Shown here: piece after piece, positions 1,879 through 62,066 of the stretch | Position numbering within the stretch: position 1 is the first letter of the stretch | Layout: every line of letters starts with the position of its first letter | NCBI GenBank assembly: GCA_019694395.1 | Contig: JAIBCC010000008.1 | Location: forward strand, 52,501 to 116,500 | Source: Pyrinomonadaceae bacterium | GTDB taxonomy: Bacteria > Acidobacteriota > Blastocatellia > Pyrinomonadales > Pyrinomonadaceae | Direction: 5' to 3' | Length of the DNA stretch: 64,000 nucleotides | Position numbers and translations under genes: made by a program | Notes under the pieces: model-generated | Databases searched by the model: none | What the model was told of the DNA's origin: nothing | The model's input: the letters and a program-made list of their open reading frames with translations, nothing else

Positions 1879-4080
1879 ATGTTTGAAGCAAAAAATAAAT
1901 CTGAAAAACTTTTCCAGCTAATTTCATACGGGGTTGCTCTAACCGCTTTACTTACTCTTTTAGCATCAGGAAGTATTGGTTTTCTTAACACGTTTTTTTT
2001 TCTAATAATACTTATATTGGCTTGGTTTATAGAAGGCTCGCGTTGGCAAATTTCAGAAAGAATTGGGGTTGCCTTAATTGTTCTGGTAGTCCCCTTTTTT
2101 TATTTGGATTGGAAATATCAACTGAGCGGGTTTAATTCAAGAGATGCTTTCGCCGCTGGGAATCTCTCACGAATAATTTTAATTCTCGGTTCAATAAAAC
2201 TACTACAAAAGAAAGGGGACAGGGATTGGGTATTGATCTACCTGATTTCATTTTTTGAGATTTTGCTGGCTGCGGGAGTTGGGATAAGTCCTTTATTTTT
2301 AGCGTGCTTACTAATTTACCTGCTTTTTTCGTTTAGTGCGATTATTTTATTCGAGATCAGAAAAACATCCAGTTCTATTCTGGAAAAGAAAGAGAAACAA
2401 ACTCTTAAATTAAAATCAAGGAGTTTGCAAAGCTCTCAGCTGCTGCGTCTTCCTCTAACTTCATTTATTCTGTTACTGCTAATTTCATTTATTGCGGTTC
2501 CTCTCTTTTTTGTATTCCCAAGAGTTGGCGGTGCAGGATTTGGAAACAATTTAAATGGGATAACAAGTCTTACCGGATTTTCTGATTCAGTAAGGCTTGG
2601 GGAAATTGGTAGATTACAACAAAGCGACCAGACCGTGATGCGTATCAAGGTTGAAAAATCTGATGGGAAAGAAGTCAGAAACCTTCGTTGGCGCGGAGTT
2701 GCCTTGGACTCCTTTAATAATCAAACTTGGTTTAAATCAAGACCCCAATATTCAGAAGTAATTGGTAAAACTGAACAGGATTATTTTGCCCTTGGCTATA
2801 CACAGGATGTTAATCGTCTGGTAACACAAACAGTTTATTTAGAGCCAATTGAAACGCCGATTTTATTTGCTCTGGCAAATCCGGTTGCTTTGCAGGGAAA
2901 TTTTCAATTAATTAACAAAGATTTGGAAAGCTCATTGAGTGCACCCCGGGCAAATGCCGGACGAATCAGCTACAAAGTGATTTCAGATAATGTTTTACCG
3001 AGCGAATCGGAATTACGAAAGGACGATTCATCTTACACACCGCAATTTAATCGTTATCTACAATTACCGGAAAATTTGGATGAAAGAATTAAGCAATTAA
3101 CGGGAGAAATTATCCAAAAAGCGGGGGCAAAAGGGAAATTTGAGCAGGCAAAAGCCGTAGAGAATTATTTAAAAAATAACTACGGATATTCATTGGAAAT
3201 GAAAGCTGGGGGAAAAGATCCATTGGCAGATTTTATATTCAATGTGCGTGAGGGACATTGTGAATATTTTGCCTCAGCTTTGGCTATTATGTTGAGAACT
3301 CAAGGTATTGCCACCCGCGTTGTAAATGGATTTCAATCAGGTGAATATAACGATACGGCAGATGTTTTTGTGGTTAAACAAAAAGATGCACATTCCTGGG
3401 TTGAAGTTTATTTCCCAAAAGAAAAAGTTTGGATTCCTTTTGATGCAACTCCGGCAGGAGGGCAATTTGCACAAGGCACTTCAAGCGGTATTACTTCAAG
3501 TCTCAGTAAAGTGCTCGAAACGCTTGAAACGTATTGGATTCAATATGTTGTTAGCTATGATAACCTGGGACAACGTTCCCTTCTTATCACCTTGCGAAAT
3601 GCCTTGCTGGGATTAAAGGCTACAGTTTCGGTTTGGGCGGAATCCGCTCAAAGAAGTTTTGGTAAATGGTGGGAGCAAGTTCGGGGAGAAGACGGAGTTA
3701 ACGGAAGCATAGTAGCTATTTTATGGGGAATTGGTTATCTTTTGGTATTTATTTGCGGAATTTTTTCATTAATTTGGAGCCTGAGAAAATTAATTCGCTT
3801 AAAACTTTGGGAGAAAATTCGTGCAATTTTCAAACGAAAAAAAGAAACTTCAGTAGTTGAATTTTATCAAAGAATGCAAAAAGTCCTTGCTAAACGTGGA
3901 TTAATGCGCGAACCGCATCAAACTCCGCTTGAATTTGCCTTTGCTCTGAATATGCCGCAAGCCCTTTCCATTACCGAAAAATATCACGATGTCAGATTCG
4001 GCGAAAAGAAATTGTCAAAAGATGAAGCTCAGGAGATCGAAGATTGGTTAAAAGATTTGGAAAAAAATGAAAAAACATAA
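1879..4080 (+). CDS. TgpA-like transglutaminase-domain membrane protein
   Basis: Member of the DUF3488/TgpA plus transglutaminase-like family (733 aa), inner-membrane proteins with a papain-like domain facing the periplasm. Several hydrophobic segments fill the first 220 residues. The transglutaminase core carries the full Cys-His-Asp triad: C461 in GHCEYFASAL, H505 in DAHSWVEVYF and D522 in PFDATP. A further membrane helix lies near residue 620, followed by a cytoplasmic C-terminal tail of DUF4129 type. The start is unusual: the ATG follows a terminator hairpin with no spacer, and the only Shine-Dalgarno-like bases (AGG, 1871-1873) are in the 3' arm of that hairpin. The stop overlaps the next gene by 14 bases, so the two are co-transcribed. 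The substrate is unknown. Confidence 0.9.
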   Translation: MFEAKNKSEKLFQLISYGVALTALLTLLASGSIGFLNTFFFLIILILAWFIEGSRWQISERIGVALIVLVVPFFYLDWKYQLSGFNSRDAFAAGNLSRIILILGSIKLLQKKGDRDWVLIYLISFFEILLAAGVGISPLFLACLLIYLLFSFSAIILFEIRKTSSSILEKKEKQTLKLKSRSLQSSQLLRLPLTSFILLLLISFIAVPLFFVFPRVGGAGFGNNLNGITSLTGFSDSVRLGEIGRLQQSDQTVMRIKVEKSDGKEVRNLRWRGVALDSFNNQTWFKSRPQYSEVIGKTEQDYFALGYTQDVNRLVTQTVYLEPIETPILFALANPVALQGNFQLINKDLESSLSAPRANAGRISYKVISDNVLPSESELRKDDSSYTPQFNRYLQLPENLDERIKQLTGEIIQKAGAKGKFEQAKAVENYLKNNYGYSLEMKAGGKDPLADFIFNVREGHCEYFASALAIMLRTQGIATRVVNGFQSGEYNDTADVFVVKQKDAHSWVEVYFPKEKVWIPFDATPAGGQFAQGTSSGITSSLSKVLETLETYWIQYVVSYDNLGQRSLLITLRNALLGLKATVSVWAESAQRSFGKWWEQVRGEDGVNGSIVAILWGIGYLLVFICGIFSLIWSLRKLIRLKLWEKIRAIFKRKKETSVVEFYQRMQKVLAKRGLMREPHQTPLEFAFALNMPQALSITEKYHDVRFGEKKLSKDEAQEIEDWLKDLEKNEKT

Positions 4081-9636: not shown

Positions 9637-10998
9637 TTAAAAGAACGTTTTATGTAGTCTTTTAACCACCTCACTTAAATTTTCTTCTTTTACGACAAAA
9701 GTTACATTGACGCTTGATGCTCCGTGTGAAATCAGCGAAATATTGATGTCTTCGAGGGTCGAAAAGATTTGTGAAGCGACTCCCGAAGTTGTTCGCAAAC
9801 CGCCGCCGACGACACAAACCACGGCGTTTCCGTGTTCAACTTCAATGGTTCCGATTCTTTCTAAATCTTTGACTACTGCATCCAAAGATTCGGTGCTGTC
9901 CAACGTCAGTGAAACCGAAACTTCCGAAGTTGTGACCACATCAACAACCACCCGATGACGTTCAAAAATCTGAAAAATCGCGCTCATAAATCCATACGCA
10001 CCAAGCATTCGTGCAGAACTAATTCGCAAAATAGTGACACCTTTTTTGAAAGCGATGGACTTGACCTTTCGCGGAGTGGTTTCGGATTGCGGCAAAATCA
10101 TCGTGCCGCGTTCCTGCGGTTGATGTGAATTACAAACCCGAACCGGAATCGAAAAATCTACGGCAGGCTGAATTGTTTTTGGATGCAATACTTTAGCCCC
10201 AAAATAAGCAAGCTCGGCGGCTTCCTCGTAAGAAAGTGTTTTCAAAGAGCGGGCTTCGGGGCAAATGCGCGGATCGGTAGTCAAAACTCCGGTTACATCC
10301 GTCCAAATTTGAATCTCCCGCGCCCGCAAAGCTGCACCAACTAAAGCGGCTGAGTAATCGCTTCCGCCGCGTCCGAGCGTAGTTGTTTCACCGCTTCGAC
10401 TTGCCGCAATAAATCCGCCCATCACAGGAATTTCGCCGTTGTTAATTTGCGGATGGAGCTCTAATTGAATAATTCGTTCGGTTTCATTCCAGATCGGATT
10501 TGCCGCACCGTGTTCGTCATCGGTAACAATCAAACGGCGTGAATCTGCGTGTCGTGCGTTTAATCCGGCAGCTTTGCAAACTTCTGTCAATAAACGGCTT
10601 GAAAGTTGTTCGCCGTAGGCTACAATCACATCTTTGAGCAACTGCAAGGGAAGTGAGCGGCGCGAAACTCTCTGTAAAATTTCGGTCAATTCGGTCTTCG
10701 ATTTTTGCAATTCATCAAAAAATCTTTTTTGCGCTTCTTCGCCGGTCAAATCTTTGGCAACAGTAAGGTGTCGTTCAAAATGCGGTTCTAAACTTTCAAT
10801 TGCTTTTTCCGGCTCGTCTTTTTTGGCTAAATCAAAGGCAAACAATAAAGCATCCGTAACTTTACTCATTGCAGAGGTTACAACTACGGGAGAATTTTCT
10901 TTTTCTCCGGTGACGATGGATGCGACTCGTTCAAAAGCGGAAGTATCCTGCACCGAAGTTCCGCCAAATTTCATTACAGTTGGTTTCAAATTGCTCAT
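9637..10998 (-). CDS. lysC: Aspartate kinase, riboswitch-controlled
   Basis: Phosphorylates aspartate, the first step toward lysine, methionine, threonine and diaminopimelate. 453 aa from the ATG at 10998 (start MSNLKPTVMKFGGTSV). The kinase signature KFGGTS lies at residues 10-15, the substrate/ATP block TTLGRGGSDYSA near the middle, and two ACT regulatory domains occupy the last 150 residues. A longer open frame reaches upstream through a terminator hairpin and is rejected as a start. The 5' leader carries a lysine riboswitch and terminator, so lysine is the likely repressing signal; length and domain order match lysine-sensitive single-function aspartokinases. Confidence 0.95.
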   Translation of the reverse strand: MSNLKPTVMKFGGTSVQDTSAFERVASIVTGEKENSPVVVTSAMSKVTDALLFAFDLAKKDEPEKAIESLEPHFERHLTVAKDLTGEEAQKRFFDELQKSKTELTEILQRVSRRSLPLQLLKDVIVAYGEQLSSRLLTEVCKAAGLNARHADSRRLIVTDDEHGAANPIWNETERIIQLELHPQINNGEIPVMGGFIAASRSGETTTLGRGGSDYSAALVGAALRAREIQIWTDVTGVLTTDPRICPEARSLKTLSYEEAAELAYFGAKVLHPKTIQPAVDFSIPVRVCNSHQPQERGTMILPQSETTPRKVKSIAFKKGVTILRISSARMLGAYGFMSAIFQIFERHRVVVDVVTTSEVSVSLTLDSTESLDAVVKDLERIGTIEVEHGNAVVCVVGGGLRTTSGVASQIFSTLEDINISLISHGASSVNVTFVVKEENLSEVVKRLHKTFF

Positions 10999-11008
10999 AA
11001 AACTTTCG

Positions 11009-11130
11009 TTTGGTTTTTGGTCTTTGGCTTTTGGTTTTTGTAAGAAGGACATTTGTTTCTCAAATTTTAACCGAATATTAGTTGGCAAAATTAAGGAAAA
11101 CAAAGACCAAAGCCCCAAAGCCCAAGACCA
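11009..11130. repeat. Heptamer arrays in the lysC leader
   Basis: Period-7 units of the form TTTGGTT/TTTGGTC/TTTGGCT run from 11009 to 11040. A degenerate inverse array (units such as AAAGACC and AAAGCCC) lies at about 11098-11130. Both are in the untranslated leader of lysC, between the riboswitch terminator and the start codon. Confidence 0.8.
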
Positions 11131-11133
11131 CAA

Positions 11134-11170
11134 ATAAAAAAAGCCGATTGTGAAAAAGCACACAACCGAC
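11134..11170 (-). terminator. Rho-independent terminator of the lysine riboswitch
   Basis: On the minus strand, a 10-bp stem (11170-11161 with 11152-11143, two G-T wobbles) is followed by a run of T (11142-11134 read on that strand). It sits about 25 bases downstream of the aptamer, the position of an expression platform that stops transcription when lysine is bound. Confidence 0.88.
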
Positions 11171-11194
11171 CTCAAAAAAATATTTCTTAGAAAA

Positions 11195-11370
11195 TCTGTC
11201 GTAGCTCTTCAACGAATAACGTTGACAGTCTAACGGATTTAGCCGTTATAACCAACTTGCCAAATTGAGAAGTTTTTGGCAAATTTCGGCGGTTTACCCC
11301 TTTCATTTTTCCTCAAAAAGCCCTCTCGCTCTCCGAAAAATTACTCTTGAAAACCGCACCTCTACTTAAA
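11195..11370 (-). promoter_or_regulatory. Lysine riboswitch (L box)
   Basis: Read on the minus strand, the stretch follows the L-box consensus in order. AGAGGTGCG is followed by the AAGAGTA of the P2 internal loop, then GAAAGGGG and CCGCCGAA before P3. P3 is a long stem around TTTGCCAAA and TTTGGCAAG. The P4 region and GACTGTCA follow, then P5 (CAACG with CGTTG) and the closing GAGCTAC, whose CTAC pairs with the opening GTAG. Order and spacing agree with the Bacillus lysC riboswitch. A TTGACA box at 11424-11419 may be its promoter -35. It precedes a terminator and the aspartate kinase gene. Confidence 0.93.
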
Positions 11371-11566
11371 AAATTATCAAAACACGAAATTGATAAGCTA
11401 AACTTTGCAGTTGATTTTGTCAAGTTTGGAAAACCTCATCATTAAAATTGATTTTTAATTTAACTCTGCCACATATTTCAAAATAAAAGGAAAGTAAGAT
11501 AAACTGGCAGAAGTTTATTAATGATTTTGAACAAAATCCTATAATTTATCGTAAGGATATACGGCT

Positions 11567-12178
11567 ATGCCTAAAAAATTCGATACAAATCCGCTCGATC
11601 CTGAGTTTCCGAAAAAAGTTGCGGAAGCGCAACAAGATGAAACTGCGTATAAATTAACTGCCGACACTCAGCTTTTTCAAGGTGATGCTGCAACGGATGA
11701 GCAAACGCGGCGTTTTCAGGAAGCGCAATTTCAGTCCTACGCTAACGTGCCAAATTATCAACCGCCTGCGGTGTATAATACGGCAAGATTTATGGAGACG
11801 GATCAACCTATCAATCGTAAAGTTGATAAAATCGGACTGCCGGAAAATATTCTGGTTGCATTGCCGTATTTGCCTTGGGGACTTGGTTTGATTGCAGGGC
11901 TGATTGAATTATTGTTAGTTCCACGAAGCGAACCGAAAGTTCGTTTTCATGCGGCGCAAGGACTAGCATTACATATAGGAGTTTTGCTAATTAGCACAAT
12001 TCTTGGGGTAGTTGGGAGATTTTCTGATTGGGCTGGAAGCGGAAGCTGGATATTTTCTTTAGCGATGCTTATATTTTTTATAATCTGGACAATTAAAGCC
12101 TATCAAGGCAAACCCATTCATGTTGAGGCTGTTGATGAATTAACTAATTGGTTAGAAGAAAAAGTAAGAATCAAATAA
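11567..12178 (+). CDS. DUF4870-like membrane protein
   Basis: 203 aa. About 85 polar, Gln/Pro-rich N-terminal residues precede three hydrophobic segments (roughly 95-120, 130-155, 165-185). VRFHAAQGL between the first two is the hallmark of the DUF4870/Tic20-like small membrane family. A short amphipathic tail follows. AAGGA lies 9 bases before the ATG and a TATAAT box at 11540-11545 may be its -10. The next gene starts 5 bases after the stop, so the two form an operon. Function unknown. Confidence 0.75.
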   Translation: MPKKFDTNPLDPEFPKKVAEAQQDETAYKLTADTQLFQGDAATDEQTRRFQEAQFQSYANVPNYQPPAVYNTARFMETDQPINRKVDKIGLPENILVALPYLPWGLGLIAGLIELLLVPRSEPKVRFHAAQGLALHIGVLLISTILGVVGRFSDWAGSGSWIFSLAMLIFFIIWTIKAYQGKPIHVEAVDELTNWLEEKVRIK

Positions 12179-18338: not shown

Positions 18339-18384
18339 AAAAAAGTCGAAAGTCGAAAGTCAAAATTGGCTTTCGACTTTTTTT
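18339..18384. terminator. Bidirectional terminator made from heptamer units
   Basis: AAAAAAGTCGAAAG around 18339-18352 pairs with CTTTCGACTTTTTT at 18370-18383. A second GTCGAAA copy offers an alternative stem. The A and T runs suit termination of both the plus-strand gene ending at 18300 and the minus-strand trmB side. Just upstream, 18310-18329 is a G/C-rich hairpin-like stretch. Confidence 0.7.
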
Positions 18385-18435
18385 GTTTAAGTAGGATTCA
18401 TTTGACTTTTGACCTTTGACCTTTCGACTTTTGAT
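18345..18435. repeat. Heptamer arrays at the trmB 3' end
   Basis: Three direct units (GTCGAAA, GTCGAAA, GTCAAAA) at 18345-18365 and five units of the inverse type (TTTGACT, TTTGACC, TTTGACC, TTTCGAC, TTTTGAT) at 18401-18435. The second array lies wholly inside the trmB reading frame. Confidence 0.88.
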
Positions 18436-39410: not shown

Positions 39411-39548
39411 CGCAAAGCCGCCAAGTCCGCAAAGGTGCAAAGGCGCAGAGGCAGTTAAGTAAAAAGTAAAAAGGCAAAATTCAAGAACAAATTTTTAATT
39501 CAAATTATCTAAAAAACTTTGCGTCTTTGCCTCTTTGCGTCCTTGCGT
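39411..39548. repeat. Inverted pair of 8-9-base repeats
   Basis: Left arm CGCAAAGCCGCC AAGTCCGCAAAGGTGCAAAGG (39411-39454) and right arm of CTTTGCGTC/TTTGCCTC units (39517-39548) are inverse to each other. The gap between the two minus-strand genes from 39285 to 39561 holds this pair and otherwise only AT-rich sequence. Confidence 0.75.
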
Positions 39549-53386: not shown

Positions 53387-53465
53387 GTTTTTGGGCTTTG
53401 GCTTTTGGTTTTTGCAAGAAATAATCAGCAATCCAAAATTCAAAATTCAAAACTCAAAATCGAAG
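53384..53465. repeat. Heptamer arrays between HD-GYP gene and the next
   Basis: TAGGTTT, TTGGGCT, TTGGCTT, TTGGTTT at 53384-53414 (starting with the TAG stop) and ATCCAAA, ATTCAAA, ATTCAAA, ACTCAAA, ATCGAAG at 53431-53465. The next ATG is at 53467, one base later. Confidence 0.86.
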
Positions 53466-59155: not shown

Positions 59156-59250
59156 GATTTTTGATTTTTGATTTTTGATTTTTGATTGGAATTAAAAAGT
59201 TGAGCTAAATTTCTTATCCAATCGCAAATCTAAAATCTAAAATCGTAAAT
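59156..59250. repeat. Heptamer arrays upstream of the MFS gene
   Basis: GATTTTT repeated four times exactly at 59156-59183, then the inverse type ATCGCAA, ATCTAAA, ATCTAAA, ATCGTAA at 59221-59248. Confidence 0.9.
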
Positions 59251-60095: not shown

Positions 60096-60178
60096 AAGTC
60101 TCAAGTCTCAAGTCTCAAGTCTCAAGTCTCAAACCAAATTGACTTGAGACCTGAAACTAAAAGACTTGAGACTCTAAA
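60096..60178. repeat. AAGTCTC heptamer array and inverse copy
   Basis: Five exact copies of AAGTCTC at 60096-60130. The inverse form (ACTTGAG, ACCTGAA, ACTAAAA, GACTTGAG, ACTCTAA) lies at 60142-60178. Together they fill the gap between two minus-strand genes. Confidence 0.93.
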
Positions 60179-60509: not shown

Positions 60510-60602
60510 AGAGTAAAGAGTAGAAGAAGTGAGGAGTAAGGAATGAGGAGTGAGGAGTGGTTACGTTTCTCCTTACTCCCAACTCCTCACTTTTTACTTC
60601 CC
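60510..60602. repeat. GGAGTGA/TCCTTAC arrays around the four-helix gene (downstream side)
   Basis: Plus-strand units GAGTAAA, GAGTAGA, GGAGTAA, GGAATGA, GGAGTGA, GGAGTGG (60510-60559) and the inverse TTCTCCT, TACTCCC, AACTCCT, CACTTTT, TACTTCC (60567-60602). The pair can fold into a long hairpin. It overlaps the 3' end of the four-helix-bundle gene. Confidence 0.9.
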
Positions 60603-60976
60603 AACGGTGGTAAAACCCAAGAATCGGCATTAGTTTGCATTGAAACAAGCATAGAAATTATTTCTTCGTATTCTTTGAATAATTCTCTGCCTGTTTCAGT
60701 TTTCATATAGTTGCTGCGGACAGCAAATTCAATCCACGTTTGAGTTTCGGCTGCTTCACCTTCGGCATCATTTAGTTTGCTGATAAAAGCTAAAATATAA
60801 CGGCGTTTGCGCCACGCTTCGGCGAGATTGGCACAAACCGAACGCGATGAACGCCGAACCTGATCGTTTAAGGAATAGGTTTCTTCTTTGGGAAATAGTT
60901 TTGAGAGTTCAAAAATACGCATCGCTGTTTCAAAGGCTTTGCGATAAACTTCCAAATCCTGATGTCTGACAACCAT
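60587..60976 (-). CDS. Four-helix-bundle protein (23S rRNA-intervening-sequence type)
   Basis: 129 aa. LEVYRKAFETAMRIFELSKLFPKEE, SLNDQVRRSSRSVCANLAEAW and ETQTWIEFA (strings abbreviated here) are the hallmarks of the TIGR02436/S23 family, encoded inside rRNA IVS elements and also as free-standing genes in many genomes; related Avd proteins assist diversity-generating retroelements. No reverse transcriptase is nearby. The C-terminal residues (about GSKK) fall in the repeat array. Direct copies of the same array flank the gene on both sides. Confidence 0.92.
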   Translation of the reverse strand: MVVRHQDLEVYRKAFETAMRIFELSKLFPKEETYSLNDQVRRSSRSVCANLAEAWRKRRYILAFISKLNDAEGEAAETQTWIEFAVRSNYMKTETGRELFKEYEEIISMLVSMQTNADSWVLPPLGSKK

Positions 60977-60996
60977 TTTCTTCAGGACAAAAATGC

Positions 60997-61031
60997 TTTA
61001 CTCCTTACTCCCAACTCCTTACTCCTTACTT
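60997..61031. repeat. TTACTCC heptamer array (upstream side of the four-helix gene)
   Basis: Units TTACTCC, TTACTCC, CAACTCC, TTACTCC, TTACTTA from 60997 to 61031, of the same family as the arrays at 60510-60602. It reaches into the 3' end of the histone-deacetylase-like gene and supplies its stop. Confidence 0.9.
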
Positions 61032-61963: not shown

Positions 61964-61971
61964 AATATTTT

Positions 61972-62066
61972 GGTCTTAGACCTTTGATCTTTGATCTTTG
62001 AAGGGAAAGTTGAGATTCTGCAAATAAATCAATCAAAGGTCAAAAATCCAAAATCAAAGATCAAAT
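61972..62066. repeat. Heptamer arrays between the deacetylase and AraC genes
   Basis: GGTCTTA, GACCTTT, GATCTTT, GATCTTT at 61972-61999 and ATCAAAG, GTCAAAA, ATCCAAA, ATCAAAG, ATCAAAT at 62032-62066. They occupy the shared intergenic region of the two divergent genes. Confidence 0.88.

Follow-up and report, generated by a model that had tools for sequence, protein, structure and literature searches.

Lysine riboswitches (L-boxes, Rfam family RF00168) are found upstream of lysC in Bacillus subtilis and Escherichia coli. In the Acidobacteria, the riboswitch operon asd-lysC of Candidatus Solibacter usitatus was reported by Mukherjee et al. in 2017 (PMC5584792), and the riboswitch-regulated operon table of that survey holds a single Acidobacteria species. 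We analysed a lysC leader carried by a 64,000-nucleotide stretch of DNA (hereafter the window). Like the B. subtilis lysC L-box, it has a full-length aptamer, a P1-antiterminator-terminator layout and lysC as its target, whereas the host phylum and helix-length details differ, all within the range of RF00168. With the Solibacter element (PMC5584792) it shares the phylum, the aptamer class and the regulated step, but here the riboswitch lies directly before lysC alone. The E. coli riboswitch belongs to the same aptamer class and also targets an AKIII-type lysC; however, it works through translation and RNase E cleavage (PMC5584792), whereas here a terminator with a T-run follows the aptamer. 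The element is thus ordinary: both the class and its presence in this phylum were already known. The first-pass annotation had presented the occurrence here as worth recording if the taxonomy was right, but it is neither unrecorded nor surprising in this phylum: besides the 2017 publication (PMC5584792), RF00168 exceeded the Rfam cut-off in 42 of the 396 genomes that we sampled across the phylum.

The aptamer and its target gene

The coordinates of the features of the leader are collected in Table 1.

Table 1. Features of the lysC leader (positions in the window).
Feature	Position	Strand	Evidence
Promoter-like TTGACA (11423-11418), 17-nt spacer, TAGCTT (11400-11395)	11423-11395	minus	read from sequence
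Lysine riboswitch aptamer (L-box), five helices	11372-11194	minus	RF00168 match
GAAGAGCUACGAC: P1 3' strand (paired bases 11204-11201) and predicted antiterminator 5' half	11210-11198	minus	transcript folding, constrained folds
Predicted antiterminator 3' half (terminator 5' arm and loop)	11170-11152	minus	transcript folding, duplex, constrained folds
Intrinsic terminator: 13-pair stem 11173-11140 and T7 tract 11142-11136	11173-11136	minus	terminator scan and folding
Two period-7 arrays in inverted orientation (11009-11040; about 11100-11134), lying between terminator and lysC	11009-11134		comparison with L031 and L002
lysC, lysine-sensitive aspartokinase III type by match, 453 aa	10998-9637	minus	NF006570, PDB match

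The first-pass annotation had read a lysine riboswitch on the minus strand, with a terminator stem and T run before an aspartate kinase gene, in a probable acidobacterium; each of these points was borne out. When the RF00168 covariance model was run (Rfam cmscan), the aptamer scored 115 bits (gathering score, 30 bits) with an E-value of 5.8e-30 over model positions 1-182 of 182, so that the curated cut-off is exceeded across the whole aptamer. This is the second-highest score among all acidobacterial RF00168 matches. The aptamer begins 2 nt upstream of the interval first stated (11134-11370), which otherwise covers aptamer and terminator. Its junction letters are conserved, 46 of the 49 most conserved (upper-case) consensus letters are kept, and of the 52 Rfam base pairs for which neither partner is missing, 46 are standard pairs; under the Rfam alignment P1 has just four standard pairs. 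The element forms the leader of a lysine biosynthesis gene, lysC lying directly downstream on the same strand, and such a match together with a terminator upstream of lysC is far beyond chance. A search of the same genome (an incomplete assembly of 6.37 Mb, with 101 contigs and a completeness of 88.8%) for other L-boxes found none, leaving this aptamer as the sole copy. Apart from it, only 23S and 5S rRNA gave RNA-family matches above cut-off in the window, both at the left end.

The start of lysC is most likely ATG 10998, as judged from the conserved beginning M-S-x-L-K-P-T-V-M-K-F-G-G; further in-frame ATGs occur at 11052 and 10974. The product scored 502.3 bits against NF006570, lysine-sensitive aspartokinase III (cut-off, 455), which makes it a member of this NCBIfam equivalog, and its best PDB match was E. 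coli AKIII (2j0w/2j0x, E 2.6e-84). By sequence, LysC is thus an AKIII of the lysine-sensitive type. Elsewhere the genome encodes one more full-length aspartate kinase, within an 826-aa frame that we read as a putative bifunctional kinase/homoserine dehydrogenase. Since dapB and lysA were found in this genome and no match to LysX exceeded the cut-off, lysine is made via the diaminopimelate (DAP) route; on the same grounds we rejected the LysW pathway as the lysine source, which would make control of lysC odd. An AKIII-type LysC, the DAP route and a second kinase elsewhere make lysC a sensible lysine-dedicated control point. Among named sequences, the nearest relatives of LysC are from Pyrinomonadaceae and Acidobacteria MAGs (77-78% identity); other Acidobacteria (gp4 among them) and Gemmatimonadetes come next. 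The organism is therefore taken to be a Pyrinomonadaceae-type acidobacterium.

Expression platform and mode of control

Upstream of the aptamer, we infer that the TTGACA/TAGCTT pair is the promoter of the leader; its −10 element agrees with the consensus at only three of six positions and was not listed by the scan that identified the terminator. Downstream, the hairpin with its T7 tract is the sole terminator-like site within 10900-11600. At −16.7 kcal/mol (z −6.1), its fold was more stable than that of every one of 200 shuffles. The antiterminator duplex reaches −16.9 kcal/mol, with 2 of 200 shuffles equally good. As the transcript was folded while growing, the closed aptamer appeared first; with 3' ends at 11164-11146, GAAGAGCUACGAC then paired with GUCGGUUGUGUGCUUUUUC, so that the terminator 5' arm and loop were engaged, and the terminator formed only after its 3' arm had emerged. 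The expression platform is thus of the terminator type and mutually exclusive with a closed P1. In constrained folds the state with aptamer and terminator reached −67.4 kcal/mol, against −60.3 kcal/mol for the antiterminator state. Because the former is 7 kcal/mol more stable, the decision of the switch would be a kinetic one, taken co-transcriptionally. As free energy alone favours the terminator, the calculated folds are also compatible with a leader that may be OFF by default.

We then compared 19 related lysC leaders, drawn from the window's own family (f1) and from its class (f6), the counts below ignoring kinship. A terminator hairpin with a T-rich tail stands at the equivalent position in all 19. 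In 16 of them the leader's own antiterminator partner beats the mean of partners swapped in from other genomes, while in L034, L036 and L021 the own pairing is not better than the swapped ones. One leader (L035) carries a compensatory change on both sides, CGAC to CCAC with GUCG to GUGG. Given the terminator in every leader, the antiterminator pairing in most and this compensatory change, the locus is best explained by transcription termination induced by lysine.

The locus thus combines an aptamer and a terminator with an antiterminator that is mutually exclusive with them, the arrangement is conserved in the family, and the identity of lysC is established; we hold with high confidence that lysC is controlled through transcription termination by an RF00168 lysine riboswitch (L-box). 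Lysine binding and the direction of the response would follow what is established for RF00168. With lysine bound, P1 would be held closed and its 3' strand (GCUAC) would be unavailable; the terminator would then form and transcription would end before lysC. Without lysine, GAAGAGCUACGAC would capture the terminator 5' arm and loop once these have emerged, the terminator would be blocked and lysC would be made. Lysine would in this way act at two levels, on the LysC enzyme, which is of the lysine-inhibited type, and on LysC synthesis.

Alternatively, the riboswitch might act chiefly on translation or on the decay of the mRNA, the hairpin lying close to the start codon and masking the ribosome binding site. 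The E. coli lysC riboswitch sets a precedent for this, and in some relatives (L031, L021) the start codon directly follows the terminator T-run with no Shine-Dalgarno sequence visible, so that terminator folding could affect initiation. We nevertheless regard such control as quite unlikely: all 19 leaders have a strong hairpin with an immediate T-run, and the leader studied here has 137 nt between the T-run and ATG 10998. That the L-box is degenerate and has lost its lysine response is highly improbable: although P1 has four pairs, a few other pairs are broken and decay may be common in a family where 16 of 99 genomes carry the element, scattered on the LysC tree, the conserved letters and the near-top score described above speak against decay here, and both terminator and antiterminator are intact.

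Period-7 arrays between the terminator and lysC

The segment between the terminator and lysC holds an inverted pair of period-7 arrays, which the closely related L031 and L002 lack in their lysC leaders. The CCAAAGA-type pair is dispersed in the genome, with 175 matches (at most three mismatches) compared with 47 for a reversed control pattern. We read the pair as a dispersed repeat that is not needed for the riboswitch; it could still add a further layer of control downstream of the terminator. Between 11134 and 10998, the window reads TTTTTTTAT, the repeat and TTTTATGAGC, where L031 has TTTTTTTATGAGC. The repeat thus looks like an insertion, possibly with a short target duplication in low-complexity sequence.

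Other arrays occur in the window at 18342-18434, 39411-39548, 53430-53460, 59156-59187, 60096-60132, 60528-61030 and 61969-62065. These are tandem arrays with differing unit sequences, their period being 7 or, in a few cases, 8, and several form inverted pairs separated by about 30-120 nt. Similar arrays built from other units were also seen upstream of lysC in L035, L039, L042, L057 and L064, and around lysW in L005.

Lysine riboswitches across the Acidobacteriota

In the window's own family, the genomes with a match above the Rfam cut-off belong to 11 of 29 genera, and in f1 and f6 the element stood upstream of lysC at every locus examined. Many Bryobacterales/Solibacteraceae records have it about 2.1-2.5 kb upstream of lysC, a spacing that fits the published asd-lysC order of Candidatus Solibacter usitatus (PMC5584792). 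At most f28 loci the element precedes a DapE/ArgE-like M20 hydrolase gene, followed in f28 and f69 by asd or other genes; in one f28 genome (G027), lysC, dapB and a lysA-like gene lie within 8 kb downstream. Another f28 genome (G316) has two L-boxes, one before lysC (L006); the second (L165, C1:2298500-2306500) was seen before a DapE/ArgE-like M20 hydrolase gene, then a glutamate synthase-like large subunit gene. A match of 23.8 bits in G074 was taken as chance, being below the cut-off and having no recognised lysine gene in the ~740 nt to the contig end.

Carriers and non-carriers are intermingled on the LysC tree, with 20 changes among 106 rows, and the closest pair of neighbours that differ are L031, with the riboswitch, and L042, without it. 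By parsimony on this tree, gain and loss are both compatible with the scattered presence. Among 15 carriers, aptamer distances correlate with LysC distances (Mantel r 0.68; 0 of 5000 permutations), which fits a history of joint inheritance with lysC and recurrent loss better than independent arrivals. Aptamer relics were searched for upstream of lysC in ten non-carriers at relaxed thresholds, and none was found. Upstream of lysC in L060, which has no aptamer, GTCGTATGCTTTGCGAC (about 2440-2510) resembles by eye the lysC terminator of its relative L020; it is possibly a remnant of a lost riboswitch.

A different arrangement was seen in G131, from another acidobacterial family, where contig C119 (L005 / L164) carries an L-box of 86.7 bits with a terminator (riboswitch 2610-2846, minus strand). 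Directly downstream lie lysW (TIGR01206, 74.7 bits, cut-off 53.2), lysX (TIGR02144, 329 bits, cut-off 275.6) and an argC/lysY-type reductase gene. In this genome (90% complete) lysA is present and dapB was not found. From this gene order, the L-box apparently controls the LysW (alpha-aminoadipate type) lysine pathway. Among the 38 genomes searched in its class, none but G131 itself had an L-box before lysW, and in the literature searched we found no lysine riboswitch described for the LysW pathway; in PMC5584792, lysW and lysX-lysY are names of transporters. Resting on one genome and one contig, the arrangement remains a lead.

The aptamer lies before lysC alone in Pyrinomonadaceae, including the window, and apparently before an upstream gene of the lysC operon in Bryobacterales. 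On balance, we favour the view that in Acidobacteriota one lysine aptamer has been placed before different lysine routes, namely lysC alone, an upstream gene of a lysC operon, an M20 hydrolase and, in the single genome G131, lysW-lysX-argC/lysY.

Altogether, this locus brings no new mechanism; it adds a clean, predicted transcription-terminating lysine riboswitch in the Pyrinomonadaceae, carried by a soil-type acidobacterium. The survey around it supplies a phylum-wide count for the Acidobacteriota and shows a scattered presence within one family, and the G131 case, if true, would extend the lysine riboswitch class to a second lysine pathway.
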